Source: Salinibacter sp. 10B
GTDB lineage: Bacteria > Bacteroidota > Rhodothermia > Rhodothermales > Salinibacteraceae
DNA: 64,000 nucleotides
NCBI RefSeq assembly: GCF_002954405.1
Contig: NZ_MQWC01000004.1
Span: 2,407,909 to 2,471,908, forward strand
Reading direction: 5' to 3'
Both the position numbers and the translations under genes were made by a program. Position 1 is the stretch's first letter; every line of letters begins with the position of its first letter. Below are positions 14,132-35,330 of the stretch, piece by piece. The notes beneath the pieces were generated by a model, which had not been told where the DNA came from, did not search any database, and was given only the letters and a program-made list of their open reading frames with translations.

Positions 14132-14581
14132 ATGCGATCCGTCTCTCGCCTCACCGGTGTTCTCGCCCTTACGGTCGCGATGCTCGCCGCCGCACCGTCG
14201 GCCCAAGCCGACGTGACCCCCCGCGAGAAACTGAAGCAGCACGTCCGCGACATGGTGCAGACGGTAAAGGCCGCTCCGACCGCCCCGAAGAAGCGCGCGA
14301 TTCTCGACGAAAAGCTCCGGGGCATGATCGAGGCCCTGAACCGAGCCGAGCGGATGGCGCCTTTCTCTCTCCAGGATCAGAAGGGCATCGACGCCCTGCG
14401 GACGCGTCTGCAGGAGAAGCTTGACGAGCTCCACGGACAGAACGGGTATGAGGCTGTGCCGGCTGGACAACTGAACACGTTTGCGGACTACGTGCAGCAG
14501 GACTTCGAGCAGGCCGACAGCATCACCATCAGCCTCACCTCGGCGCTCCTGATCTTGATTCTCGTGATCCTGCTCGTGTAG
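14132..14581 (+). CDS. Small exported protein with C-terminal membrane anchor
   Basis: 149 residues from the ATG at 14132, which gives a signal peptide (MRSVSRLTGVLALTVAMLAA, cleavage near AQA). The mature part is helical and charged (about residues 30-125), and the last ~20 residues, SLTSALLILILVILLV, form a transmembrane helix ending at the stop. No family recognised. A 21-nt gap to the next gene points to one operon with the clostripain-like lipoprotein. Confidence 0.7.
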   Translation: MRSVSRLTGVLALTVAMLAAAPSAQADVTPREKLKQHVRDMVQTVKAAPTAPKKRAILDEKLRGMIEALNRAERMAPFSLQDQKGIDALRTRLQEKLDELHGQNGYEAVPAGQLNTFADYVQQDFEQADSITISLTSALLILILVILLV

Positions 14582-14602
14582 ACATCCCTTCCGCTCTGTC
14601 CC

Positions 14603-15658
14603 ATGCCGGTACGCCTCCCGCCGCGGCTTGCCGCCCTCTTTCTGGGCATTCTGTTGTTGCTGATCGGGGGATGCCGTAGCATCGTGCCCGTGCCGCCCGG
14701 CGGAACGGACGCTCCGAAATCGGGGGAGCCGCTACGACAACGAATCCTGATTCTCGTGCACGGGGACGCAAGTTATCTCTACCACGCCCCCGACGGCACA
14801 CCGCACCAGGCCGATACGGAAACCCTGCGAGAGGCCTTTTCGGCGGCCCAATCAATGCCCCGAGCGGAGATCTTCGTCTTCCACCAGCGCCCGCACGATT
14901 CGGTACTCGGCCTCTTCCCACGAGCCGACGGTACCCTCTATCACTTCCGCCACGGCCGGCTCCACCACCAAACCACGTACGACCAGACCCGCACTCGCCC
15001 GTTTGAGGCGGAAGCCGAACTCGTGCGCAGGCACCGAGCGCCCGTGCCGGATTCCAGTCTCTTTACTGCCGCGCTGTACTATGGCCACGCCGTGCCGGAG
15101 CAATCCCGCCCCGGCTACCACCGCTCTCAGGCCGATGTCCCGTTCGGCATTCCCGACTTGGCACAGGGCCTGGAGCGTCTGTCTGCCGCTGAAGCGTTCG
15201 ACGCTGTCGTGCTCTCCACCTGCGACGGCGGCACCCCGAACACCCTCGCCGCACTCGCCCCCCACGTCCGGCACGTCCTCGCTGCCCCCGGCGACCTGCA
15301 CCTCTCCTACGTGGATGCTGACCTGCTGTCGACAGTGGGCACCGTAACGGAGCCCGACGCATGGACGCACCGCCTCGCCGAACGAGCCTTCGACCGACTC
15401 ACGGCACGCGTCACGACGGCCGTCACCCTGGCCACCTACGACACGCCCCAGGTAGCCCCCGCCGCCCGACGAATGGCCCGGCGCGTACCGCCGGACACCT
15501 CCACGGCCCCCACCGGTGCCCGCCTCGTCGACTGCCGACAGGTGCTTGACTCCACCGTTGACACAACCGGCGTTCGCGTCTGGCACCGGCCTGCTCGCTT
15601 CGGCCCGCAGGCCGATCAGGACACGCACTCGGGATGGGGCTGTCTCCCGACTCCCTGA
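14603..15658 (+). CDS. Clostripain-like (clan CD) lipoprotein
   Basis: 351 residues. Lipoprotein signal with LLLLIGGC lipobox. The body has the layout of clan CD cysteine peptidases: an early strand ILILVHGDASYLY, a candidate catalytic His at residue 162 in ALYYGHAVP, and a candidate Cys at 207 in DAVVLSTCDGGTPNTLAAL, followed by a strand and APGDLHLSYVD. The His-then-Cys order and 45-residue spacing fit family C11 (clostripain) and caspase-like folds. It would act at the cell surface or in the periplasm. Sequence identity to known members looks low, so peptidase activity is a proposal. Second gene after the small exported protein. Confidence 0.65.
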   Translation: MPVRLPPRLAALFLGILLLLIGGCRSIVPVPPGGTDAPKSGEPLRQRILILVHGDASYLYHAPDGTPHQADTETLREAFSAAQSMPRAEIFVFHQRPHDSVLGLFPRADGTLYHFRHGRLHHQTTYDQTRTRPFEAEAELVRRHRAPVPDSSLFTAALYYGHAVPEQSRPGYHRSQADVPFGIPDLAQGLERLSAAEAFDAVVLSTCDGGTPNTLAALAPHVRHVLAAPGDLHLSYVDADLLSTVGTVTEPDAWTHRLAERAFDRLTARVTTAVTLATYDTPQVAPAARRMARRVPPDTSTAPTGARLVDCRQVLDSTVDTTGVRVWHRPARFGPQADQDTHSGWGCLPTP

Positions 15659-21455: not shown

Positions 21456-24400
21456 ATGCCCATGCCCCAGCCGCACGACTCTGAGAGGAGCCATCCCGGT
21501 GTCTTTTTTTCGGTAGACGCTCTTCCCGAGGCGTTCAACACAAATGGCGAGAACGACACTCCCGGTGCCCGCCTCCAGTCCCTTCTCTCCGGATCGTCCT
21601 CTCCCTCTTCCGACGCGCTCTCGTCCATCCTGGAGATCGGGCTCGACTGGCTCGGGGTGGAGCATGGCCACCTGGCCCAGATCGATTTGGGCTCCAATCG
21701 GCACACCATCACGACCGTCGCCGGCACGCCCTCAACCGTTTCACAGGGCGACCGCCTCCCTCTTTCGGCCACGTACTGCCGGAAGGTCCTCGGGGAAAAC
21801 GCCGTGCTTACGGTGAACGATGCGGAGGCCGCGGGATGGGCGGCGGATCCTGCGTACGAGACGTTTTCGTTTTCCACCTATCTGGGCGCAACGGTTGTGG
21901 CGGAGGGAGAGCTATACGGGGCCCTCTGCTTCGGCGACCGCCGTCCTCAGGACGTGCCCCTTCGGGAGGACGCCGCCGCTGTGGTTAAGGCCCTGGCCGA
22001 CGCCGCCGGCGAAGTGTTGGCCCGCAGTGGCCCATCCAATCGGGCTCTGCCCCCCCAGAACCAGTTGGAGGCGTTGTTCGAGCATTCGCCCAATATGATC
22101 AACCTCCACGACGCGGCGGGCAACCTGATTGCCCCAAACCCGCGTCTCTGCGAAAAGACGGGATACGAGCCCGAGGAGCTCACGAACATGAAGGTGTGGG
22201 AACTCGACCAGGACGCCGATCCGGAGGAAGCACGCGCTGCTTGGGCTGAGATGGTCCCGGGCGACCGCCGCCGGTGGGAGGGGACCTTTCAGCGCACGGA
22301 CGGCTCCACCTTTCCCGTCGAGGTCGACGTGCAATGCCTTGAAGTAGAGGAAGGCCCCCGGTTCGTCGCCACCAGTCGGGATATTTCCGAGCGCCGGGCG
22401 GCCCAAACGGCTCTGGAACAGCGCGAAGAGCTCCACCGCGAGACCCTCCGCAACATCACGGATGCGGTGTTTATCACCCGATCGGACGGGACCTTCACGT
22501 ACGTCTGCCCGAATGTCGAGTACATCTTCAAGCAATCGCGGGAGGAGGTCGAAGCGCTCGGATCCATCTCCGCCCTTCTCGGCAGCGATCCGGCCGAGCA
22601 GCAGGACTTCGGCAAGACCCAAGAAGTTCAAAACATTGAACATCGGGTCGTGGACGCCGAGGGTACCGAGCACGACCTTCTCATCAACATCCGGCGCGTG
22701 TCGATCCAGGAGGGATGCCGGATGTATACGTGCCGGGACGTAACAGGGCGGAAAGACGCCGAACGGGAGCTCAAAAAGCAAAACGATCTGCTGTCCGAGA
22801 TCCAGCATCTCGCCAACGTCGGCGGGTGGGAGTACGATGTGCAGACCGAAGAGCACACCTGGACGCAGGAGGTGTATCGCATCTACGGTCTCTCCGAAGA
22901 TGTCGACCCCACGGTTGAAGGCGGCATCTCGTACTATCACCCCGAGGACCAGTCCACAATCCGGGCGGCGTTTACCCGTGCGGTGGAGGAGGGGGAGCCG
23001 TACGAACTGGAGTTGCGTCTCCTCCGGGAGGATGGGGAGCAGCGATGGGTTCGCACGCGCGGGATGCCGCAGGTTTCGGACGGGGAGGTGGTTCAGGTTC
23101 GCGGCAGCATTCAGGACATTACCGAACGAAAAACGGCCGAGCAGGATCTGCGTAACACGAAGCAACTGCTGGAGAAAACGTTTGAGAATCTGGGGGAGGT
23201 CGTCTTGATCGTCGACCCGCCGAACCGTCGGATTATTTCGTGCAATTCGGCGGTCGAGGATGTCTTTGGGTACAAGAAGGAGGAACTCATCGGGGAAAGC
23301 ACCGAGAAGCTCCACAAGAGCCCGGAGGCCTACCAGCGCTTTGGGAAGATCGGAGAGCCCATCCTGGAGGAGGACGGCATCTTCCGACATGAATACCAGA
23401 TGCGTCGGAAGAACGGAGAGATTATCGACACCGAACACGTGGTGACGCCGCTGGAGGACGAAAACTGGCCCGGCGGGGTGGTGAGCGTCATTCGGGACGT
23501 GACCGAGCAGAAGGAAACCCGGCGACAACTCCGCGAGGAGCGCGACCTGCTGGACCGCATCCTGGAAACTAGTCCGGCCGCCATCGCGGTCCTTAACACC
23601 GACGGGGCGTTCATCGAAGCCAGCGCACGGGCCGAGGACATTCTCGGGCTGACGAAGGAGAAGGTGACCGAGCGCACTTATGACGACCCGGAGTGGAATA
23701 TCCGCCGGCCGGACGGCACCCCTATGCCGGAGGCGGAGCTTCCCTTTGCCCGGGTGATGGACACGGACGCGCCCGTCTACGACGTTGAACACAAGATCGA
23801 GTGGCCCGATGGGACCCAGCGGCTGTTGTCGGTCAGCGGCGCTCCGCTGCACTCGCCGGACGGCGACCTGGAGGGAGCCGTCTTCCACATGGACGACATT
23901 ACGGAACGCCGAGCGGCCAAACGAAAGCTCCGGGAGGAGCGAGATCGATTTGCCACCCTCTTTCACAACCTGCCCACGCCGGTCGTGCACGGGCGCCGCG
24001 ACGACGAGGACCGGATTCACATCCAGGCCGTGAACGAACGATTCGAGACCGTCTTTGGATACGAGGAGAGCGTCATTCGGTCGGAAGGCTGGCAGGACCT
24101 CCTTGTGCCAGACAGCGAGCAGGACGAGGCAGCATCCATTCGTCGCTCCCTATTGGAGGGGACTCCCGTACAACATGAGGTGCGCCGACAAACGGCCGGC
24201 GAGGTGCGGGACTTTCGGGTGCAGGTCGCCCTGCGCGAGACCGACGAACAACCGACCGAAGGGTTTGCAATTTACACCGACATTACCGAGCGCAAAAAGC
24301 AGCAGCGGCGCCGAGAGGAGGTCATCCGGCGCGTGACCGACGCTATTGTCGAGATCGACGCGGACTGGCGGTTTACCCTCCTTAACGACCAGGCCGAGGC

Positions 24401-25679
24401 CCTCTACGAAATGCCCGAGGAGGCCCTGCTCGGCAAGCGCTTCTGGGACATTTTTCCGGAGGCGATCGGGACGCGCTTCGAGGAGGTGTACCGGGGCGTG
24501 ATGACCACCCGCGAGCCCGCCTCCATCGAAGAATACTATCCCGGACTCAACGGGTGGTTCAACATCCAGGTATACCCCAATCCTGACGGTGGCATTGCGT
24601 TCTATTTTCAGGACATCACCGAGCGCAAGAAGCAAAAACAACAGCTTATGCGCCGCAAGGCGCTCCTGGAAGCCCAGGCCCGTGCCACGATCGACGGCCT
24701 GCTCGTCATCGATCCGGATCGGCACGTCATGTTCTACAACGATCAATTCCTCAACCTCTGGGACATTCCGAAGGAGGTTGCGGACACGTCCCCCGACGAG
24801 CATCTTTCCGAGAGCACTCTTCTCAACAGCGCGGGTCACCTGCTCGCCAACCCGAAGGAGTTCCGCCGAAAAGTGGAGTACCTCTACAACCACCCGGACA
24901 AGGAAAGCCGAGACTTGATCCAATTGACCGACGGCCGCTGGTTCGATCGCTACAGTGCTCCGATCAGGAGTGACGACGGCACCCACTTCGGCCGCCTCTG
25001 GATCTTTCGGGACGTCACGGACCAGCGCCGGATGCTGGAGCGTCTGCTGGAGGTGCAGGAGGAAGAACGACGTCGTATCGACCAGGAAATCCACGACGAG
25101 ATGGGGGGACTCCTCACCTCCCTTCAGTTCACGATCGACATTGCGCGCCGTGAGACGCAAGAACACGGCGCGCCTTCCACTCACTTCGACCAACTGGAAG
25201 AGCTGGTGAGCGACCTTTCAACAGTGTCCCGGACGATCTCTCGGAAGCTATATCCCAGCGACCTTTCGAATTCCGGCCTCGTAGAGGCCGTGTCTTCTCT
25301 AGTGAACAAGCTAAAGGAGAAACACGCCCTTGAAATCGATTTCTACAGCGAGTTTGCTCACGGCGAGCGCTTCTCCAAGATCATCGAGCGCACGGCCTTC
25401 TGGATCGCACAGGAGGTCCTGGTGACGATCGCCGGACACGACGCAACGGACGCGGCGCACGTGACCCTTACCAAAAGCGCCGACCAGCTTCACCTGCATA
25501 TTTTCGATGACGGTGTTGAGGTCGGCTCCTCGCCCACGGGAGAGGCCCCCTTCGGCTTGGACAACATCCGTTCCCGTGTTGAGAGGCTCAACGGAGACAT
25601 TGACATCGCTCCCATTCCCGACGAGGGAACCCGTATCTCCGTCACGCTTCCGGCCAAGCTTCCCTTTCCAGCCCAGTAA
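21456..25679 (+). CDS. GAF/multi-PAS sensor histidine kinase (HisKA_3 type), degenerate ATP site
   Basis: 1407 residues, no membrane helices, so probably a cytosolic sensor. A GAF domain (about 30-190) is followed by eight PAS/PAC units, each ending in a DITERK-like linker (residues 309, 427, 553, 680, 813, 941, 1052, 1186), then a HisKA_3 dimerisation helix with phospho-acceptor His1213 in IDQEIHDEMGGLLTSL. The ATPase domain is unusual: at the N-box, QEALxNALKHA is replaced by QEVLVTIAGHD, losing the Mg-binding Asn, and the G1 box DNGxG reads DDGVEVG. HisKA_3 kinases pair with NarL-type regulators, and one follows at 26136. Kinase activity may be weak, or it may act as a phosphatase. Confidence 0.9.
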   Translation: MPMPQPHDSERSHPGVFFSVDALPEAFNTNGENDTPGARLQSLLSGSSSPSSDALSSILEIGLDWLGVEHGHLAQIDLGSNRHTITTVAGTPSTVSQGDRLPLSATYCRKVLGENAVLTVNDAEAAGWAADPAYETFSFSTYLGATVVAEGELYGALCFGDRRPQDVPLREDAAAVVKALADAAGEVLARSGPSNRALPPQNQLEALFEHSPNMINLHDAAGNLIAPNPRLCEKTGYEPEELTNMKVWELDQDADPEEARAAWAEMVPGDRRRWEGTFQRTDGSTFPVEVDVQCLEVEEGPRFVATSRDISERRAAQTALEQREELHRETLRNITDAVFITRSDGTFTYVCPNVEYIFKQSREEVEALGSISALLGSDPAEQQDFGKTQEVQNIEHRVVDAEGTEHDLLINIRRVSIQEGCRMYTCRDVTGRKDAERELKKQNDLLSEIQHLANVGGWEYDVQTEEHTWTQEVYRIYGLSEDVDPTVEGGISYYHPEDQSTIRAAFTRAVEEGEPYELELRLLREDGEQRWVRTRGMPQVSDGEVVQVRGSIQDITERKTAEQDLRNTKQLLEKTFENLGEVVLIVDPPNRRIISCNSAVEDVFGYKKEELIGESTEKLHKSPEAYQRFGKIGEPILEEDGIFRHEYQMRRKNGEIIDTEHVVTPLEDENWPGGVVSVIRDVTEQKETRRQLREERDLLDRILETSPAAIAVLNTDGAFIEASARAEDILGLTKEKVTERTYDDPEWNIRRPDGTPMPEAELPFARVMDTDAPVYDVEHKIEWPDGTQRLLSVSGAPLHSPDGDLEGAVFHMDDITERRAAKRKLREERDRFATLFHNLPTPVVHGRRDDEDRIHIQAVNERFETVFGYEESVIRSEGWQDLLVPDSEQDEAASIRRSLLEGTPVQHEVRRQTAGEVRDFRVQVALRETDEQPTEGFAIYTDITERKKQQRRREEVIRRVTDAIVEIDADWRFTLLNDQAEALYEMPEEALLGKRFWDIFPEAIGTRFEEVYRGVMTTREPASIEEYYPGLNGWFNIQVYPNPDGGIAFYFQDITERKKQKQQLMRRKALLEAQARATIDGLLVIDPDRHVMFYNDQFLNLWDIPKEVADTSPDEHLSESTLLNSAGHLLANPKEFRRKVEYLYNHPDKESRDLIQLTDGRWFDRYSAPIRSDDGTHFGRLWIFRDVTDQRRMLERLLEVQEEERRRIDQEIHDEMGGLLTSLQFTIDIARRETQEHGAPSTHFDQLEELVSDLSTVSRTISRKLYPSDLSNSGLVEAVSSLVNKLKEKHALEIDFYSEFAHGERFSKIIERTAFWIAQEVLVTIAGHDATDAAHVTLTKSADQLHLHIFDDGVEVGSSPTGEAPFGLDNIRSRVERLNGDIDIAPIPDEGTRISVTLPAKLPFPAQ

Positions 25680-26135
25680 TTGTTGAGTACCAAACGACTG
25701 TCCCAACGATCCCTCGCGGCGCGCGCCCTGCTTTCCGTTACGTGAGCGTGAAGACCCGTAGCTTCTGTAACCTCTGGGTAAACGGCTCTTCTATTCGGAA
25801 AAACCAGGAAAGGGATTCGTCTTCCTTATCCCAAAGGGGTAGGGATTGTGCTCATTGCTGTATCGACAACAAAAATAAAATAAAAGTAATACATCACATA
25901 AGTTGAGGGTACTGAAAGAGATTTCAGCCAGTGGGCGTTTGAGGGCTGCGCGGCGGAATACATCCCCTCCTGGCGCCTCACAGGGGACGGGATGTGCCCC
26001 CCTCCCCACTGATCGCAGCGTCCGGAGGTCGAGCATGGGGCTTCGCATTTCAGAAAGAGTATATTCGGACACAGCACGGACCAACCCGTCTCGTCGTCCT
26101 GATTTCGTTAGCGTCGCATCAATCGGCCAGGGGCT
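25680..26135. other. Spacer upstream of the response regulator
   Basis: 456 nt, no gene. An AT-rich tract at 25868-25900 is followed by CTGAAA GAGA TTTCAG at 25912-25927, a perfect 6-bp inverted repeat with a 4-nt centre, about 210 nt before the regulator start. It suggests the regulator has its own promoter rather than reading through from the kinase. Confidence 0.4.
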
Positions 26136-26780
26136 ATGCTCATTTCATCACTCATCGCCGAAGACCATGACCTGACGCGACAGGGCATCCGGTCACTACT
26201 CGAGGACCGACTTGATGCTCGCGTGTGCGCGACGACCGGGAATGGGCTGGATGTTTTTTCCCTCCTTCAGGAGCATGAGCCCGACCTTCTCGTTCTCGAC
26301 CTGGGCCTTCCCCACCTCAACGGCCTCGACGTTCTCCGTCAGATTCAGGAGAGTGCCCTTTCCGTACAGGTGGTGGTGCTGTCGATGCACGCAGAAGACA
26401 TCTACGTGAGTCGGGCCTTCGAGCTGGGGGCAGCGGGATATGTGTTGAAGGGGGCCTCCCTGGACGAGATGGTACGCGCAGTCCGAACCGTCGTCGGCGG
26501 GAACCGATACCTCAGCGATGACCTGTCGGACGCGCTACTCAACGCCCCACAATCAACAAACGGAGACGCCGATGACCGATACCAAACCCTGACCGCCCGG
26601 GAACGCGAAGTGCTCCAGCTCACGGCGGAGGGATATACCAGTCAGGAAATCGGCGAGCACCTCCACATCAGCCCCCGAACGGCCGACAAACATCGGCAAA
26701 ACATCAAAGCAAAGCTGGAGCTCAAGAATGTGGCTGAGATGACAGCCTATGCCCACCGGCGCGGACTTATCACGGGATAG
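26136..26780 (+). CDS. NarL/FixJ-family response regulator
   Basis: 214 residues. Receiver domain 1-120 with the acidic pair in IAEDHDL, phospho-acceptor Asp55 in LLVLDLGLP, Ser/Thr in VVLSMHAED and Lys in GYVLKGAS. The LuxR-type DNA-binding domain is at about 150-210: LTAREREVLQLTAEGYTSQE, then IGEHLHISPRTADKHRQNI. Its natural partner by type is the HisKA_3 kinase upstream. The second kinase begins 82 nt downstream, so regulator and second kinase may be co-transcribed. Confidence 0.93.
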   Translation: MLISSLIAEDHDLTRQGIRSLLEDRLDARVCATTGNGLDVFSLLQEHEPDLLVLDLGLPHLNGLDVLRQIQESALSVQVVVLSMHAEDIYVSRAFELGAAGYVLKGASLDEMVRAVRTVVGGNRYLSDDLSDALLNAPQSTNGDADDRYQTLTAREREVLQLTAEGYTSQEIGEHLHISPRTADKHRQNIKAKLELKNVAEMTAYAHRRGLITG

Positions 26781-26862
26781 CCCGTCGCCCCTCGTTCGCA
26801 TTGATGAGCAGCCTTCCGCCCGGCTTGCGCTCCTGTTCTTTTGCATTGTTGCTCCTCTGTGC

Positions 26863-29800
26863 ATGTCTACCGACCGCAAGGGCTCCGCTCCCGATTCCAA
26901 CCTTCAGAATCCGGCCCGTGTGCGGGCTCTGCGCCGGTATGATGTGTTCGACTCTCCTCCGACCGAGGCCTTCGATCGCCTAACCGTCCTGGCGGCCGAA
27001 TTTTTCGAGGTGGACGTTGCATTCGTATCGTTTGTCGACGCCGACCGACAATGGTTTGCGTCCACCGTGGGACTGGAGCAGCGCGAACGCCCGCTGGCGT
27101 CTTCCTTCTGCTCCCACACGATCGAAAACGAGGACCTTCTGATCATCACTGACGCGGCCGGAGACGAGCGGGTGTGCGACAGCCCGTTCGTCACGGAGAT
27201 GGGGATCCGGTTTTACGCGGGCGCCCCGCTCACGACCCCTGATGGCCATGCCATCGGCACGTTCGGGATCATGAACTCGGACCGGCAGGCGCCATCGGAC
27301 GCCTCCCTGCGCCGCCTCCTCTCCTTTGCCGAAATGGCGTTTGACGCGTTGAGCCTACGTCGAAAAACGCGAGAGCACCGGCAGGCGACCCGGCGCCTCG
27401 ATGCCATTCTGGAGGACCCGGACGTACTCACGGGCGTGCTCGCCCCCGACGGCACCCTTTTGGAGGCAAACGCGACGTCCCTCAACTATATCCAAGAGAG
27501 CCGGGAGGACGTGATCGGGCAGCCATTCTGGGAAACGCCCTGGTGGTCGGATCGAATCGCCTCGGACGTGCAGAACTGGATTGAGCAGGCGGCCGGCGGG
27601 GAGTACGTCGAGTACAATGCGGATCTACTTGGGCCGGACGGCGCTCCGTACAGCGTGGAGGGCACAATCCGTCCGGTCGTGGAGGACGGCGCGGTCGTCT
27701 CGCTCATCGTTTCCGCCCGCGACGTCACCCAGCGCAAGCAGAGCGAGCGGAAGCTCCGCGAGAGCGAGGCGCGATACCGGGCGCTTGCGGAAAACTTTCC
27801 GAACGGCGCCGTGGGGGTGTACGACCGGGACCTCCGCTACACGCTGGTGGCCGGAACATCGATCGGGGACACCCTACCGTCGTCCTCCCGCCTTGAGGGC
27901 GCCCGGATGCCGGACGTCTTTCCGGACGCAACCGCCCAAGACCTGACGCCGCTCTTTCGTGCTGCGGTGGAGGAAGGAGAATCCGACAGCGTCGAGACCC
28001 ACTTCGACGATCGCATCTGGCGGGTCTGGGCCACACCTCTGCGGGACGAGGAGGGATCGATCTTCGCCGGCCTGAGCTTTGCGCAGGACATCACCGAGCA
28101 GCGTCGTCGGGAGCAGACCTTGCGCCTTTTCCGACAGATCGTGGAGCAGGCGAAGGACGGCATTCTCGTGACCGAAGCCGCTCCCCTGGACGCCCCTGGC
28201 CCCCGCATCGAATACGTCAATCCGGCCTTCGAGGCCCTGTCCGGCTACGAGGCCGAGGAGATCCGTGGCCGGACGCCGCGCATCCTGCAGGGCCCCGAAA
28301 CGGATCCGTCGGTGCTGGCCTCTCTTCGGGAGGCCCTGGAGGCCGGCGAGACCTGGGAGGGCGAAACGATCAACTACCGTAAGGACCAGACGCCGTACCG
28401 GCTCCGGTGGAGTATTTCCCCCATTCGGGGGCGAAACGGCGAAATCGAACACTGGCTCTCCGTCCAGCGGGACGTGACCGAGCTACGAGAGACGAAGAAA
28501 GCACTGAAACGCCAACGCAACCTTCTGAAGCAGGCCCAACGCCTGGCCGGGGCCTGGGAAATCGACCTCCGAACCGAACACGTCTCCTGGTCGGACAAGG
28601 TCTACGAAATCCACGAGGTCCCGCCCGGCACAGAGATTGGCATAGAAGAGGGAATTCAATTCTACACCGAGGAGGCCCGCCCCCGAATCCGTGAGGCCTT
28701 CGAGCGGTGCATCGAAAAGGGCATTCCCTACGACCTGGAACTGCCCCTCATCACAGCAAACGGCAACCGGCGATGGGTCCGCACGGTCGGCGCCCCGGCA
28801 GAGCGAGAAAACGGAACCGTCGTTAAGGTGGCTGGGGCATTTCAGAACATTACGGAGCGGAAAGAAACGGAGCAAGCGCTTCGCCAACAAAAAGAACGAC
28901 TTCAGGATCTGGCCAACAGCGTCCCGGGCGTCATCGTCCAGTTTTATGCTCGCCCCGATGGCACGCGTGGCAACTACTTCGTGAGCGAGCACGCCCGCTC
29001 GATGCTCGGCATCTCTCCGGACCCAGACACCTTCTACGAGCGGGTTCTGGAGCGCATCCCCTCGTCGCACCAGGAGGAATTCCAGTCCTCGGTTGAGGAA
29101 GCCGTAACCGAACGAACACCCTGGCGCCACGAGATGCCGTTTGTGAAGCCCTCGGGCGAGAAGATCTGGCTCCTCGGCATCACAACGCCTCGCGAACGCG
29201 AAGAGGAGGTCGTCTTTAACGGCGTCTTGCTCGACATCACCGAGCGCAAGAAAGCCGAAGAGAAGCTCCGAGAGGCCAAGACAATGGCCGAAGAGGCCGC
29301 CCGGCTCAAGAGCGTCATGCTGGCCAATATGAGCCACGAGGTCCGGACGCCGCTCACCTCTATGATCGGGTTTTCCGGACTGCTAACGGATCGGCTGGAG
29401 GGTCACTCCGCCAAACTTGCGCGCCTCATTCACAAGAGCGGACAGCGCCTAAAAAATACGATCGAGGCAGCGCTTCAGCTCTCGCGGCTCGAAGCCGGCA
29501 GCTTCACCGTCGTCCGCGAGACCGTTCAACTCAACGCTGCGGCCCGCACGGCCGTCGACGAATTCAGTCCCCAGGCGCAGGAGCATGGCGTTGATGTACG
29601 GGTCGATCCCGCCGACGAGCCCGTGGAGGCTCACGCCGACGAGGTCGCCGTTCGGCGGATCGTGAGCAACCTCCTGGACAACGCAATCAAATTCACACCG
29701 GACGGCGGCCAGGTCACGGTTCGAACCCGGATTGACGGCCCTGAGCGCGTAGCGCTGATGGTTCAGGACACTGGGATCGGCATTTCCGAGGAGGCTCTCC

Positions 29801-30000
29801 CAACCATCTTCGAGGCCTTTACGCAGGAGTCAGAAGGGCTCACCCGCGAGTACGAAGGCGCAGGGCTCGGGCTCTCGATCGTTCAAAAGCTGGTGGACGC
29901 TCTTGGGGGCACCATCGAGGTCGAGACCCAAAAAGGAGAGGGAACGTGTTTCATTGTGCAGCTGCCCCGTGCCTACGACGCCTCCCCGCAGGAGTCGTAG
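26863..30000 (+). CDS. GAF/multi-PAS sensor histidine kinase (HisKA type)
   Basis: 1045 residues from the ATG at 26863; the in-frame start at 26749 would overlap the response regulator and adds sequence unlike the family, while the chosen start is followed by the GAF-typical VRALRRYDVFDSPPTEAFDR. The GAF domain (about 15-170) and five PAS/PAC units (linkers at 286, 408, 536, 662, 790) precede a HisKA domain with His825 in MLANMSHEVRTPLTSMIGFS and an intact ATPase domain: N-box SNLLDNAIKF, G1 DTGIGI, F-box FEAFTQE, G2 GAGLGLSI. No membrane helix and no receiver domain, so it needs a separate regulator. Confidence 0.92.
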   Translation: MSTDRKGSAPDSNLQNPARVRALRRYDVFDSPPTEAFDRLTVLAAEFFEVDVAFVSFVDADRQWFASTVGLEQRERPLASSFCSHTIENEDLLIITDAAGDERVCDSPFVTEMGIRFYAGAPLTTPDGHAIGTFGIMNSDRQAPSDASLRRLLSFAEMAFDALSLRRKTREHRQATRRLDAILEDPDVLTGVLAPDGTLLEANATSLNYIQESREDVIGQPFWETPWWSDRIASDVQNWIEQAAGGEYVEYNADLLGPDGAPYSVEGTIRPVVEDGAVVSLIVSARDVTQRKQSERKLRESEARYRALAENFPNGAVGVYDRDLRYTLVAGTSIGDTLPSSSRLEGARMPDVFPDATAQDLTPLFRAAVEEGESDSVETHFDDRIWRVWATPLRDEEGSIFAGLSFAQDITEQRRREQTLRLFRQIVEQAKDGILVTEAAPLDAPGPRIEYVNPAFEALSGYEAEEIRGRTPRILQGPETDPSVLASLREALEAGETWEGETINYRKDQTPYRLRWSISPIRGRNGEIEHWLSVQRDVTELRETKKALKRQRNLLKQAQRLAGAWEIDLRTEHVSWSDKVYEIHEVPPGTEIGIEEGIQFYTEEARPRIREAFERCIEKGIPYDLELPLITANGNRRWVRTVGAPAERENGTVVKVAGAFQNITERKETEQALRQQKERLQDLANSVPGVIVQFYARPDGTRGNYFVSEHARSMLGISPDPDTFYERVLERIPSSHQEEFQSSVEEAVTERTPWRHEMPFVKPSGEKIWLLGITTPREREEEVVFNGVLLDITERKKAEEKLREAKTMAEEAARLKSVMLANMSHEVRTPLTSMIGFSGLLTDRLEGHSAKLARLIHKSGQRLKNTIEAALQLSRLEAGSFTVVRETVQLNAAARTAVDEFSPQAQEHGVDVRVDPADEPVEAHADEVAVRRIVSNLLDNAIKFTPDGGQVTVRTRIDGPERVALMVQDTGIGISEEALPTIFEAFTQESEGLTREYEGAGLGLSIVQKLVDALGGTIEVETQKGEGTCFIVQLPRAYDASPQES

Positions 30001-30539
30001 ACAGCGGCCGCGGGGATCGCAGCCCCGCCCCTCCTCCTGCCCTCTCTCCTTCGGCCGTCTCTGTCCCTCCATCGCCCTTCGCCAATCGTCCGATCGGGCG
30101 GCCAGTGCCGGACTGTCGCGTCCCGGCGTTGCCCCCCCGACCTGCTGACACGAACTCGCGTGCTCCGTTCGGGGTGGACGTTTGGACGAATGGATGTGGG
30201 GACGGATTTCACCTCCAAACGTCCACTCGTTCTCACGTCCCTACCCACACGAGGCCGACGGACGCAGTTCCTCCCGTCCCTGGTATACATACGGCGATTT
30301 CCGTTATTCAGAGCCGATTGCAGCTCCCGTGATCCCGACCGTTTGAGCCAGCTCTTGTATTACACTGCTCAAAGGGGATCATAATCATATCGAAAAACAG
30401 CCATTCTCGAATGCTAATCTGGGCTTGCTATCTACAGGGTGTTCGGGCTGGGTCTTCATGTTGCCCGGAACGGAGGAGCGCACGCCCGCACTCCTTCCGT
30501 CGAATGCCCCGTGTTTTTTTGAGCAAGCCTTGATTGCAC
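30001..30539. other. Spacer before the TonB receptor, with inverted repeat
   Basis: 539 nt, no gene. TGGACGTTTGGA at 30175-30186 and its exact complement at 30214-30225 form a 12-bp inverted repeat made of the intergenic word family. A GCGGGG/CCCCGC hairpin (30010-30028) follows the kinase stop. The last ~200 nt (30340-30540) are less GC-rich and probably hold the receptor promoter. Confidence 0.4.
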
Positions 30540-33458
30540 ATGCGTCAGTCCTACCATCGCTTCCTTTGTTCACTCCTTCCCCTCCTGGCCGTTGCTCTCC
30601 TCGGTCCCGTCGTCGGCCATGCCCAATCGACGGGCATCGTGCAGGGACGGGTCGTGGACGCAGCGGACGGCACACCGCTTCCCGGGGCCAACGTCGTGGT
30701 CGACGGCACGACGCTCGGAACGTCCACAGGCCAAAACGGCCGCTTCGAATTGCGGAACGTCCCGGCCGGCTCGCAGACCCTGACCGTTTCGTACGTGAGC
30801 TACCAACAGAAGAGCCAAACGGTCGAGGTCGAATCGGGAGCAACGATAACCGTCACTCTTGAAATCGAGAGCCGGGTGCTTGAAGGAGGAGAGGTCGTCG
30901 TGACCGGCCTGCGCGGCAGCCAGTTCCGGTCCGCAACCCAGAAAAAGCAGTCGATCAACATCGTAGATGCCCTGGCGGCCGACCGCATCGGCAACCTGCC
31001 CGAAAAGAACGTGGCGGAGGCCGTGCAGCGCCTACCGGGCATCGTAATGCGCAACGACCGCACGGAGGGGCGCTTCGTGTCGATTCGCGGCGGGGCGGCC
31101 AACCTCAACAACGTAACGCTTAACGGCAACACGCTCGCGTCGACCGCCGGTTCGCGCGCCACGGCCCTCGACCTGCTCCCGGCCGAGATGGTCTCGAACG
31201 TAGAAGTCACCAAAGCCGTGACGCCGGACATGCCGGCCAACGCCATCGGCGGATCCGTCAACATCTCGACGCTGACCGCCTTTGACCGCGAGGGAGCCTT
31301 CGCTTTCGGGTCAATCCGCGGCCTCCAACACGATCAGCAGGTGCCCTCGTTTGAGACGGCGTTTCCGTTCCGCGCCAACCTCACGGCCGGCACCCAGGTA
31401 GGCCCGAACGACAACATTGGCCTACTCGTCTCCGCCAGTGGCTCGCGTCGCGACTTCACGACCTCGGGCCTCAAGGCTGAGAACTGGAACTGGGCCAATG
31501 AGGAGGACCTGCCCACGACCAACGTCCCGGAAGGATTCGAGCAAGTCGTCGAGCGCAACAAGCGAAGCCGCTTTGCTCTGAACACGAGTTTCGACTGGCG
31601 GCCCACCGACCAGACCTCCGGTTTCGTACGGCCGTACTTCACCTACACCGACGAGGCGGGCATCGACAATGAATTGGAGTACGTGCTGAAGGGAGGCGAG
31701 GACGCCGGACCGACGATCACCGAGAACGGATCGCGGTTTCCCGCCGGCTACGGCTCCGTGGACCTCAGCCGCACCGACGAGGAAGAGTCGCTCTGGGGCA
31801 CCAATGTGGGATTTGAGCACCGCTTCGGCAGTGCCCTCACGTGGTCGGCCAGCGGCACCTACTCGCGCGGCTACCTTGAGCGGGGCGGCCCGGACGGCGA
31901 ATTCCAGACGCCCGGCGAGGACAGCGTGAACCCGCAGGCCTCCGGCGTGGCCGACATGACCAACTTCCTCTTCAACTTCTATCCGGAGAATCCGCAGTAT
32001 ATCGGCGACGCAAGCAACTACACGGCCAACCCCGTCGACGTCGAGTATCAAGAAAACACGGAGAACACCTACGCGGCGAAAACCGACGTCCGCCTTCCGT
32101 TCGAATTCGGCGCGCTCCCGGGCTACCTCAAGGCGGGCGGCCAGATTGAGATGCGGGACAAGTCGGTGGACGCGGCTGACATCGAGTTCAACTACGCGGG
32201 CGACGGCAGCCTCTCACTGGCAGACTACGCGGCTCCGAGTGTGCAAACGGTGCAGGTAGGCAATAGCCTCTTCCCATTTGCGGATACGGAGGCCTTCGCC
32301 AACGATTTCCTCAACAACGTCTGCCAACCCCCGGGCAACCGACTCTCAGGCGACCGCACCTGCCAAAACCCCGACAGCCCGTACGAGATCAACACGGAGG
32401 AAGTCCAGACGGAGGACGTGGAGAACGACTCCGAGAATGAAGAGAGCATCTACGCGGGGTACGCAATGGCCTCGGCCGAATTTGGTCCCCTGACGGCCCT
32501 TGCGGGCGCCCGAATCGAGTACACGTCCACCTCCTCCACCCGCTTCCAGCTCCTAGAAAACGACAACACGGGTAACCTCACCACCACCAGCCAGACCTTC
32601 GACAATTCCTACACCGACGTGCTGCCCTCGGTGCACCTCACGTTTGAGGCCACCGACAACCTCCAGTTCCGCGGCGCCTGGACCAACACCCTTGGACGTC
32701 CGGACTACGAGAAGCTGTCCTCGTTCAGCGAGGTCACCGTAGAGGGCTCGGAGGCGGAGGTGATTGAAGGGAACCCGAACCTGAAGCCCTTCAAGGCCAT
32801 GAATGTCGACCTCACCGCCGAATATTACTTCTCCGACGGCGGACTCGCGTCGGTGGCCGGCTTCTACAAACAGATTGACAATCCGATCTACCGGTTCACC
32901 GAGACGGAAACGGACGTATCAAACCCCTTCGGCGACGGCCGGACGTTCAATCGCGTCCAGCGCACGCAGGAGCGAAACGCGGACTCGGGCTCGGTGCTGG
33001 GCCTGGAGGCCACCTACCAGCAGTCGTTCACCTTCCTGCCCGCCCCGCTCAACGGCCTCGGCCTCAATTCGAACCTCACCGTCACGGACTCGGAGGTTGA
33101 CGTGCCCAATCGCGGCGACCTGCCGTTCTTCCAGCAGGCCGACCTGGTGTACAACATCGTGCCGTACTTCCAAAAGGGCGGCTTCGAGGCCCGCGTCGCG
33201 ATCAACTACCGCGGCGACTACCTCCTGTCGCTGAGCGAGTTTGCGGTAAACGACACCTACGTGGCCGAACGGACGACGGTGGACTTCAATGCCAGCTACC
33301 AGCTTGAGGGGCTGATCGGCAATCCTGAGCTGCTGGTGCAGGTCGAGAACGTGACGAATGAGCCGGAGGTTGAGTACGCCGGGGGCGATACGAATCGCCT
33401 CTCCAGTCACTACCTGAGCGGCCGCGCCGTAGCCATCGGCCTTTCGATGGAATTCTAG
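30540..33458 (+). CDS. TonB-dependent receptor with carboxypeptidase-like N-terminal domain
   Basis: 972 residues from the ATG at 30540. Signal peptide (cleavage near GHAQ), then a CarboxypepD_reg-like domain (GIVQGRVVDAADGTPLPGAN, about 30-115), a TonB-box-like GGEVVVTG, and a plug with RIGNLPEKNVAEAVQRLPGI and SIRGG, typical of the Xanthomonas/Caulobacter-type TonB receptors. The rest is a 22-strand barrel ending in AIGLSMEF with terminal Phe. The substrate is unknown; the next gene is a phosphatase-like lipoprotein, so a phosphorylated organic compound is one guess. Confidence 0.92.
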   Translation: MRQSYHRFLCSLLPLLAVALLGPVVGHAQSTGIVQGRVVDAADGTPLPGANVVVDGTTLGTSTGQNGRFELRNVPAGSQTLTVSYVSYQQKSQTVEVESGATITVTLEIESRVLEGGEVVVTGLRGSQFRSATQKKQSINIVDALAADRIGNLPEKNVAEAVQRLPGIVMRNDRTEGRFVSIRGGAANLNNVTLNGNTLASTAGSRATALDLLPAEMVSNVEVTKAVTPDMPANAIGGSVNISTLTAFDREGAFAFGSIRGLQHDQQVPSFETAFPFRANLTAGTQVGPNDNIGLLVSASGSRRDFTTSGLKAENWNWANEEDLPTTNVPEGFEQVVERNKRSRFALNTSFDWRPTDQTSGFVRPYFTYTDEAGIDNELEYVLKGGEDAGPTITENGSRFPAGYGSVDLSRTDEEESLWGTNVGFEHRFGSALTWSASGTYSRGYLERGGPDGEFQTPGEDSVNPQASGVADMTNFLFNFYPENPQYIGDASNYTANPVDVEYQENTENTYAAKTDVRLPFEFGALPGYLKAGGQIEMRDKSVDAADIEFNYAGDGSLSLADYAAPSVQTVQVGNSLFPFADTEAFANDFLNNVCQPPGNRLSGDRTCQNPDSPYEINTEEVQTEDVENDSENEESIYAGYAMASAEFGPLTALAGARIEYTSTSSTRFQLLENDNTGNLTTTSQTFDNSYTDVLPSVHLTFEATDNLQFRGAWTNTLGRPDYEKLSSFSEVTVEGSEAEVIEGNPNLKPFKAMNVDLTAEYYFSDGGLASVAGFYKQIDNPIYRFTETETDVSNPFGDGRTFNRVQRTQERNADSGSVLGLEATYQQSFTFLPAPLNGLGLNSNLTVTDSEVDVPNRGDLPFFQQADLVYNIVPYFQKGGFEARVAINYRGDYLLSLSEFAVNDTYVAERTTVDFNASYQLEGLIGNPELLVQVENVTNEPEVEYAGGDTNRLSSHYLSGRAVAIGLSMEF

Positions 33459-33492
33459 ACCTCTCGCCCCGTCCCGGCCCTCTCCCCCGCGC

Positions 33493-33520
33493 CCCCTTCC
33501 TGCACGTTCGGGGGAAGGGG
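33493..33520 (+). terminator. Hairpin after the TonB receptor gene
   Basis: CCCCTTCC (33493-33500) pairs with GGAAGGGG (33513-33520) across a 12-nt loop, 35 nt after the stop; GTGTTTTG follows. Could end or attenuate transcription into the phosphatase gene. Confidence 0.55.
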
Positions 33521-33569
33521 ACGCGTGTTTTGTTCCCCTTCTCCGCCTCGTTCACAAGCGATCGATCAC

Positions 33570-35330
33570 ATGCCTCCCCCCAACGCTCGCCTGCTTTTCC
33601 TTACGACGCTCGTCCTTCCGATCGGTCTGTTGGCGGCCGCCTGCTCGACGCCGTCCTCTGGCTCGTCGAACGCTGAGAAGCCCGATTCTTCCTCGACGGA
33701 GGCGGCGACGCTCCCCTCCACGACGCCCAGCCCCTACCCGGACCGCATCGTGCTCAGCTGGGAAGAAGACCCGGCCTCTTCCCTCAGCGTCACGTGGCGC
33801 ACCGACAGCACGGTTACGGACGCCAAGGCTCAGATCGCCCCCGCCCTCGGCGCCCCCTCGTTCTACACGAAGGCCAAAACCGTGGACGCGGAGACGCAGG
33901 ACCTCCACACGCACAAGGTCACCGGCGAGCACGTGAACGCCAAGTACCACTCCGTCACCTTCGACGGCCTGATGGCCGACACGCTTTACGCCTACCGCGT
34001 GGGCGACGGCACACACTGGAGCGAGTGGTTCCACGCGCGCACCGCCAGCCGGCAGCCGGAGCCGTTCAGCTTCGTCTACGTGGGTGACGCGCAGAACAAC
34101 GTGCGCTCGCACTGGTCGCGCCTCCTCCGCCAGGCCTATGCCGACGCCCCGACCATCGACTTCATGATCCACGCGGGCGACCTCGTGAACAATGCCCACC
34201 GGAACGTGGAGTGGGGTCACTGGAACGCGGCCGGCGGCTGGATCCAGAGCATGGTGCCGAACGTGGCGGTGCCGGGCAACCATGAGTACGGAGGCTACCG
34301 CTCCTGGCACGCGCGCGATACCTTCCGGGTGGAGGTAGAGGCCACTGGACAGAAAATGACTGGAACTATTCTGGAGCCGGACGGCAATCCGGAACCGCTG
34401 GAGGCCAGTAGCAGCGCCGATCCATCCGCCGACTCGTATCCCGCCGGCGGTTGGGACTACAACGTCGACAACGGCGAGTACGTGGGCACGCTTGAGATTG
34501 ACGGCGACAGTTCCGGATACAGCGCGACCCTCGTGAACGAGGACGGGGACGAGTTCCCACTCCAGAACGTGGCGGTCGACGGCAGTACACTCACCGGTCA
34601 TTTCATGATGGAGGTGGAGAAGGAGAGCCCGGAGAAGCTGTCGATCCACTGGCACCCGCAGTTTACCCTTCCCAAGAATGGACCGGAGGGGATGGAGGAG
34701 ACGGTCTACTCCCTCGACTATCAGGGCATGCGCATTATCGCCCTGAACTCCAACATTCGGGACTCCTCGCGCCTCGCACGGCAAACCCAATGGCTGGAAT
34801 CAACCCTCCGAAAGACGGCGCAAAACGACGATATCCGCTGGACCGTCGCGACCTTTCACCACCCCATGTTTTCGTCGGGCGAAGGGCGGAGCAACGCGGC
34901 ACTCCGTGACCGGTGGACGCCTCTCTTCGACGAGTACAACGTGGACCTCGTGATGCAGGGCCACGACCATACCTACGCCCGCGGCCGGCTCGAAAACCTG
35001 GAGCAGGGCGTAAACGCCCGGTCGCCGAAGGGCGGCACCGTGTACGTCAACTCCGTAAGCGGGGCGAAGATGTACGAGATCAAACCCGACCGCTGGGAGG
35101 ACTTCGACGGCATCGAGATGGAGCGCGGCGCCGAAAACACGCAGCTCTATCAGGTGGTGCGCGTCCAGCAGGACACGCTGAAATTTCGCTCCTACACGGC
35201 AACCGGACAGCCGTACGACGCCTTCGACCTCGTCCAGCGTCAGGGCGCGCCGAACGAGATGATCGAGCGGCCGCCCGCGAATACGGACGAGCGGATGCAC
35301 GAAAACACGCTCGATTACATGCGGCCATAG
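33570..35330 (+). CDS. Purple-acid-phosphatase-like metallophosphoesterase lipoprotein with inserted domain
   Basis: 586 residues from the ATG at 33570, giving a lipobox LLAAAC. An N-terminal fibronectin-like domain (RIVLSWEEDPASSLSVTWRT) precedes the calcineurin-like phosphoesterase core: VYVGDAQNN (~171), HAGDLV (~199), GNHEY (~236), FHHPMF (~428) and GHDHTYAR (~463), i.e. all metal-ligand motifs. Between GNHEY and the later motifs about 105 residues (257-363) are inserted, with a Gly/Asp-rich beta pattern (GEYVGTLEIDGDSSGYSATL, then DGSTLTGHF) like the small beta domains appended to secreted hydrolases. It probably releases phosphate from organic esters outside the cell. Lies 111 nt after the receptor gene. 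Confidence 0.88.
   Translation: MPPPNARLLFLTTLVLPIGLLAAACSTPSSGSSNAEKPDSSSTEAATLPSTTPSPYPDRIVLSWEEDPASSLSVTWRTDSTVTDAKAQIAPALGAPSFYTKAKTVDAETQDLHTHKVTGEHVNAKYHSVTFDGLMADTLYAYRVGDGTHWSEWFHARTASRQPEPFSFVYVGDAQNNVRSHWSRLLRQAYADAPTIDFMIHAGDLVNNAHRNVEWGHWNAAGGWIQSMVPNVAVPGNHEYGGYRSWHARDTFRVEVEATGQKMTGTILEPDGNPEPLEASSSADPSADSYPAGGWDYNVDNGEYVGTLEIDGDSSGYSATLVNEDGDEFPLQNVAVDGSTLTGHFMMEVEKESPEKLSIHWHPQFTLPKNGPEGMEETVYSLDYQGMRIIALNSNIRDSSRLARQTQWLESTLRKTAQNDDIRWTVATFHHPMFSSGEGRSNAALRDRWTPLFDEYNVDLVMQGHDHTYARGRLENLEQGVNARSPKGGTVYVNSVSGAKMYEIKPDRWEDFDGIEMERGAENTQLYQVVRVQQDTLKFRSYTATGQPYDAFDLVQRQGAPNEMIERPPANTDERMHENTLDYMRP

Follow-up and report, generated by a model that had tools for sequence, protein, structure and literature searches.

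The stretch of the Salinibacter sp. 10B genome that was analysed (the window: 64,000 nucleotides of contig NZ_MQWC01000004.1, assembly GCF_002954405.1, positions 2,407,909 to 2,471,908 of the forward strand) contains the gene P0001, which encodes a large sensory protein built like a two-component histidine kinase. Comparison with its relatives indicates that P0001 is probably a pseudokinase, that is, a protein whose kinase activity has been lost. The gene and its parts, in window positions, are as follows:

21456–25679, + strand: P0001, a GAF-PAS(8)-HisKA_3-HATPase_c protein of 1407 amino acids (start ATG), predicted pseudokinase
21609–22019, + strand: GAF domain (residues 52–188; Pfam PF13185)
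22062–25010, + strand: array of eight PAS domains (about residues 203–1185; limits set by eye from Pfam PAS stretches and PAS-end motifs)
25035–25322, + strand: DHp (HisKA_3) domain (about residues 1194–1289; PF07730 at residues 1204–1270)
25092–25094, + strand: codon CAC of the phospho-acceptor His1213, placed by alignment
25107–25109, + strand: Gly1218, the fifth residue after the His (H+5), aligned with the Gln of the phosphatase motif DxxxQ (as described in PMC5231405 and PMC3510030)
25356–25661, + strand: ATPase (CA) domain (about residues 1301–1402; from Pfam, the DesK alignment and the comparison of nonsynonymous to synonymous substitution rates, dN/dS)
25410–25442, + strand: N-box QEVLVTIAGHD (residues 1319–1329; Thr1324 at 25425–25427), placed by alignments
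25506–25526, + strand: G1 box DDGVEVG (residues 1351–1357), placed by alignment

The reading frame is uninterrupted and, judged from its sequence, P0001 appears to be a HisKA_3 (NarX/DesK-type) histidine kinase by ancestry. The PF07730 match scores 31.4 bits against a cut-off of 24; the HATPase_c match, at 21.9 bits, falls below its cut-off of 26.4, but the domain nonetheless aligns with those of DesK and VraS. DesK of Bacillus subtilis (PDB 3gig) is the best sequence match among solved structures (E-value 6.7e-8). The PAS domains number eight because eight PAS ends of the form D[IV][TS]xxx (residues 309, 428, 554, 681, 814, 942, 1053 and 1186) are found together with the Pfam PAS stretches, and with the GAF domain recognised by Pfam this amounts to nine sensory domains, in agreement with the initial annotation. 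The His box, described there as intact, indeed reads EIHDEMGG around His1213, and His is aligned in this column in 58/58 HisKA_3 rows. A single-sequence structure prediction of the DHp-CA region had a mean predicted local distance difference test score (pLDDT) of 47.3 and a predicted template modelling score (pTM) of 0.29, and nothing was drawn from the model.

In the N-box, Thr1324 stands at the position of the Asn that coordinates Mg-ATP. The segment is paired by phmmer with KEAVTNVVKHS of DesK and by MAFFT with QEALINIIRHA and QEALLNVVRHA of paralogues from the same genome, so that alignment of the ATPase domain with the sequence of the DesK structure, with orthologues and with these paralogues confirms the replacement noted in the initial annotation. 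Beyond residue 1190, Asn occurs only at 1272, 1284, 1370 and 1379, which leaves none in the N-box helix and, with no Asn between 1284 and 1370, no substitute for the Mg position at the level of the primary structure. A single base error cannot explain Thr1324, because its codon ACG is two bases away from either Asn codon; as the orthologue in a second species (G010) lacks the Asn as well, a sequencing error was rejected as its source. Other residues of the ATP site are kept, namely Glu1320, Asp1351, Gly1353 and Gly1367, and the G2 box reads GLDN. Of the G1 box, Asp1351 and the first Gly (Gly1353) are retained and the second Gly is replaced by Glu1355. P0001 is the sole exception here, since the second Gly is present in 42/43 readable rows from the genus and in all 14 rows from outside it. 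The initial annotation had listed this box as part of a degraded ATP-binding pocket, and both its sequence and the lost Gly are real; however, the G1 box of the active kinase DesK, DDGTFKG, likewise lacks the second Gly, so that DDGVEVG is weak evidence of lost activity and was rejected as a strong argument.

The rarity of the N-box change was assessed in the genus and beyond. Twelve of the 13 genus genomes have HisKA_3 (PF07730), at 47 places in total, and these gave 44 distinct rows once L057 (kinase region the same as in L056) and L055 (one residue different from L054), both of which have the Asn, and L066, the ATPase domain of which is unreadable, had been left out; in L073 the N-box can be read and G1 and G2 cannot. 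At L066 (positions 898–1875, genome G007) the frame enters unrelated sequence after the DHp domain, pointing either to a damaged gene or to a misassembly. The N-box Asn is present in 41 of the 44 genus kinases and in 14/14 relatives from outside the genus, the latter being the best matches to P0001 in family and class searches and not a random sample (the class search covered 244 genomes, of which 17 had a match, and scored no more than 11 candidates per genome). A scan of named genomes returned one locus only, on a Peribacillus contig (L036), which is 20% identical over the PAS part and was of no use. The three kinases without the Asn are P0001 (Thr), its G010 orthologue (His) and a 379-amino-acid paralogue from the same genome as P0001 (Thr), and all three fall in one 12-member subfamily of the genus, here called GG after its motif HDxxGG or HSxxGG.

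A maximum-likelihood tree of 24 kinases groups P0001 with its G010 orthologue (ultrafast bootstrap, UFBoot, 97) beside an Asn-bearing G007 kinase (99). The 379-amino-acid protein groups with an Asn-bearing G010 protein (99) and then with an Asn-bearing G007 protein (100), the gene of which sits among the same neighbouring genes. Because the P0001 pair and the 379-amino-acid protein each group with Asn-bearing kinases, at least two losses of the Asn are implied. P0001 and its orthologue do not share their remaining lesions, P0001 lacking a G1 Gly and the G010 protein lacking both the G2 Gly and the N-box His. The two proteins also differ in their sensory parts, as the third and seventh PAS domains of P0001 are without counterpart in the orthologue, which carries another stretch inserted between the fourth and fifth.

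Changes in the degenerate proteins are concentrated at the ATP site. Fourteen ATPase columns and 13 DHp columns do not vary among the intact GG kinases; the three degenerate proteins carry 4, 6 and 7 changes in the former and none in the latter. When the intact kinases were left out one at a time as controls, eight of nine had 0–2 ATPase-column changes; the ninth, L050, is cut by the locus end and had 8/22 changes, three being gaps and none affecting the N-box Asn, G1 or G2. The intact set in this test was picked by the Asn, which makes the Asn column, though not the other columns, circular, and one of its members (a 717-amino-acid kinase described below) has a Ser at H+1. Between P0001 and its G010 orthologue, with dS above 1 over the whole gene, dN/dS is 0.09–0.17 in the six comparable PAS domains, 0.28 in the GAF domain, 0.19 in the DHp domain and 0.49 in the CA domain. 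In a comparison of pairs from the P0001 genome (G000) and G010, the two pairs that include a degenerate protein have a CA dN/dS of 0.47 and 0.48 and five intact pairs one of 0.10–0.25, at dS values of 0.8–1.9, which are near saturation (one DHp dS was not computable). Measured on a fixed tree, the two members of the P0001 pair are 3.0 times as far apart in CA as in DHp; for three other pairs the factor is 2.5, 1.8 and 0.9. The low dN/dS in the PAS and DHp domains argues that the gene is maintained, and P0001 thus appears to have been kept while its ATP site was let go. The degraded ATP site proposed in the initial annotation is thereby upheld, and comparison gives good support to the predicted loss of kinase activity, because the Asn is lost in both orthologues, the changes gather at the ATP site, and the DHp and PAS domains are conserved.

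Downstream of P0001 lie a regulator gene and a second kinase gene:

26136–26780, + strand: P0002, a NarL/DesR-type response regulator with the acidic pair ED, Asp55, Ser83 and Lys105 present, the likely output partner
26749–30000, + strand: P0003, a GAF/PAS HisKA-class kinase with an intact N-box (LLDNAIKFT) and a start perhaps at Met39 (26863), a neighbour

A gap of 456 bases separates P0001 from P0002, and a scan of 25500–27000 for promoters and terminators found neither (0.5 and 1.1 in shuffled sequences). In G010 the orthologues of P0001 and P0002 also adjoin each other, the two regulators being 70% identical; the G010 contig stops inside the regulator gene, before any counterpart of P0003 could be seen. 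Two further P0002-like regulators, L101:3425–4162 in the P0001 genome and L092:5271–5945 in G010 (47% and 50% identical to P0002), lie near a HisKA_3 kinase and in both species have a Ser in place of the phospho-acceptor Asp (VLSLRLP, compared with VLDLGLP). A 635-amino-acid protein of the P0001 genome (L105:1623–3530) is 55% identical to residues 1042–1219 of P0001, that is, the last PAS domain and the first DHp residues, and its C-terminus resembles a diguanylate cyclase, as read from the letters alone, so that one sensor module seems to be joined to two kinds of output. On the 3' side of P0003, at 30534–35330, the TonB-dependent-receptor-like P0004 and the purple-acid-phosphatase-like P0006, both named from their translations, are possible targets of the regulators.

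Besides P0001 and the 379-amino-acid protein, the genome encodes three more GG kinases, of 1079, 717 and 487 amino acids, all with the Asn; two of its five GG kinases have thus lost the catalytic Asn, independently of each other, and both have a P0002-type regulator in their cassette. The 1079-amino-acid kinase has 59 of 95 DHp residues in common with P0001, and its gene (locus L044) adjoins that of a regulator 61% identical to P0002. At the pocket positions corresponding to DesR 13, 16, 17 and 20, P0002 has T/G/I/L and this second regulator T/G/L/L. The cassette with the 1079-amino-acid kinase and its P0002-like regulator is opened by the gene of the 379-amino-acid degenerate kinase (L044:5236–6375, about 14235–15374 of G000:C4; motifs RDTLTTLVRRG, SPETGF and TLSAM), relatives of which in G010 and G007 keep the Asn. 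The 717-amino-acid kinase (L113/L045:379–2532) keeps the N-box Asn and is the only one of the 44 rows with a Ser for the Asp at H+1 (HSEMGG).

We hypothesize that P0001, having lost the Mg-ATP Asn of its N-box, would no longer phosphorylate itself efficiently but retains its sensory domains and, in the DHp domain, the helices and the phospho-acceptor His, and that it would serve the neighbouring regulator P0002 as a subunit for signal input. Its DHp domain would most likely pair with another, intact kinase of the GG subfamily, the first candidate being the 1079-amino-acid paralogue. This partner would either phosphorylate His1213 in trans or be steered onto P0002, so that the nine sensory domains would gate phosphate made by another kinase. 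That P0001 serves as a DHp-based subunit is a suggestion for which the chances appear even, and we judge the complete proposal, a HisKA_3 pseudokinase that acts on P0002 via its DHp domain and together with an intact paralogue, to be about as probable as its negation. Heterodimer formation or docking, and the direction of regulation, are inferred. That the genome also encodes an intact paralogous kinase and a regulator related to P0002 supports the proposed coupling, and a scaffold or regulatory-subunit role, one of the options raised in the initial annotation, would be compatible with the conserved domains.

The nearest published parallel, by analogy, is the ChrS/HrrS pair of Corynebacterium glutamicum. 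With the ChrS pseudokinase (ChrS_CA-fs), its regulator is activated more strongly by HrrS, the paralogous kinase, and heterodimers form between the native ChrS and HrrS proteins (PMC9491836). As predicted for P0001, CA function is lost; the DHp domain is conserved (P0001) or needed (ChrS), and an intact paralogous kinase and a related regulator are present in the same cell. In contrast to P0001, which has a natural, full-length CA domain with point losses and nine soluble sensory domains, ChrS lost its CA domain through a frameshift in laboratory evolution and has a phosphatase Gln (Q191) five residues past its His (H186), where P0001 lacks the DxxxQ Gln.

Several observations speak against the coupling of P0001 to an intact paralogue. 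According to PMC9491836, the ChrS pseudokinase did not need its own His, and truncated ChrS showed no significant heterodimerisation in a two-hybrid assay; by this analogy, both His-dependent and His-independent versions of the coupling would be possible for P0001. At H+12, P0001 has a Phe and the 1079-amino-acid kinase a Met, and the regulator pockets have Ile or Leu, differences that could mark partial insulation of the two pairs, or drift. The Asn-bearing 717-amino-acid paralogue may, with its Ser at H+1, itself be impaired. The CA/DHp dN ratio of the P0001 pair, 2.15, lies inside the range of five intact pairs (1.02–2.38), that of the pair with the 379-amino-acid protein is 1.49, and no significant shift is claimed.

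Other explanations of the degenerate ATP site have to be weighed against a DHp-based subunit. Continued autokinase activity, at a low level or through other metal ligands, would fit the retention of Glu1320 and the three G-box residues, the similar G1 box of DesK and a CA dN/dS (0.47–0.49) that is still below 1, but it is made improbable by the near-constant Asn among relatives, by an N-box helix without a substitute and by an orthologue that lacks both the Asn and G2. A CA domain under relaxed constraint, lesions that differ between the two orthologues and redundancy with paralogues would also be expected of a decaying duplicate on its way to a pseudogene; yet the 1407-residue frame is intact, the PAS and DHp domains are strongly constrained despite a whole-gene dS above 1, and the pairing with the regulator is kept in G010, and we consider decay improbable. 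The initial annotation further proposed phosphorylation in trans by the kinase two genes downstream. While trans-phosphorylation as such is plausible, P0003, which shares strand and neighbourhood with P0001 and has intact HisKA and HATPase_c domains, is a poor partner and was rejected, as its DHp domain is of the HisKA class (PF00512, 55.2 bits) and not HisKA_3, and the 16–18 kilobases viewed at its relatives in G003 and G008 contain no orthologue of P0001. We regard this route as highly improbable; Asn-bearing kinases of the same subfamily would fit better as partners.

A dedicated phosphatase of phosphorylated P0002 that has lost its kinase activity, also suggested in the initial annotation, has precedents in EnvZ-N347D, a kinase-negative and phosphatase-positive Asn mutant known here from the title of a cited paper, and in DrBphP, which has the same two properties and an N-box His like the G010 orthologue (PMC8292422); moreover, the DHp domain of P0001 is conserved and Asp1214 of the DxxxQ motif is kept. 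However, the phosphatase reaction of HisKA_3 proteins depends on the Gln of this motif (PMC5231405, PMC3510030), and its position is taken by Gly1218 (DxxxG), which weakens this role. The residue at H+5 is Gly in 12, Gln in 20 and Ser in 12 of the 44 genus kinases, and since it is Gly in all 12 GG kinases, Asn-bearing ones included, the Gly predates the lesion of P0001. In addition, PhyP, at first thought to be a phosphatase, gave no such activity in vitro according to PMC5898713, and we consider a phosphatase unlikely. The same protein, now PhyT, is the model for a relay phosphotransferase of the PhyT or Spo0B type, in which His1213 would take phosphate from a phosphorylated receiver and hand it to P0002. 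In PhyT the ATPase domain is degenerated, the His is needed and the gene sits at the locus of its regulator (PMC5898713), and P0001, with its conserved His1213 and DHp domain and its degenerate ATPase domain, resembles it; but no donor receiver was identified, albeit without a systematic search for one, and we think a relay of this kind rather improbable.

Other known systems can be compared with P0001 as well. RocA of group A Streptococcus presumably belongs to another family than P0001. It is likewise a pseudokinase with a CA domain that lacks key residues, and it interacts with the intact kinase CovS, but it is membrane-spanning and its target is the CovR/S system (PMC7028121). PhyT of Sphingomonas melonis Fr1 shares with P0001 the degenerated ATPase domain, conserved His and location with a regulator, whereas its DHp motif is HRxxN, it is membrane-anchored and it acts with SdrG (PMC5898713). 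DrBphP of Deinococcus radiodurans is a natural case of N-box Asn loss and has no kinase activity, as predicted for P0001; in contrast to P0001, which keeps the Asp at H+1, it is of the HisKA class, has a His at H+1 and acts as a phosphatase via the Glu at H+4 (PMC8292422). DesK, finally, has the domain pair HisKA_3 and HATPase_c, a regulator (DesR) of the P0002 type and a G1 box without the second Gly in common with P0001, and differs in having the N-box Asn and the phosphatase Gln193 (PMC5231405) where P0001 has Thr1324 and Gly1218.

Disabled histidine kinases are already known as a kind; the natural and repeated HisKA_3 case in duplicated cassettes is a variant that the literature search did not turn up. 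The search returned no HisKA_3 pseudokinase of this lineage, although subscription papers were mostly beyond its reach and it is hence no proof of absence, and the pseudokinases derived from histidine kinases that it did return are either of a different DHp class or products of laboratory evolution. The Salinibacter case combines a natural HisKA_3 pseudokinase kept in two species, a second and independent loss in the genome of P0001, and Asn-bearing paralogues as controls, and so offers a way to test whether duplicated kinases give rise to heterodimeric sensing via ATP-dead partners. As a tentative and rather doubtful extension, duplication of cassettes in this lineage might time and again turn HisKA_3 kinases into sensory subunits that are ATP-dead, giving a small network of obligate heterodimers in which many PAS and GAF inputs would gate one or two active kinases. 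If true, such a network would be the natural counterpart of the ChrS/HrrS state reached by laboratory evolution.

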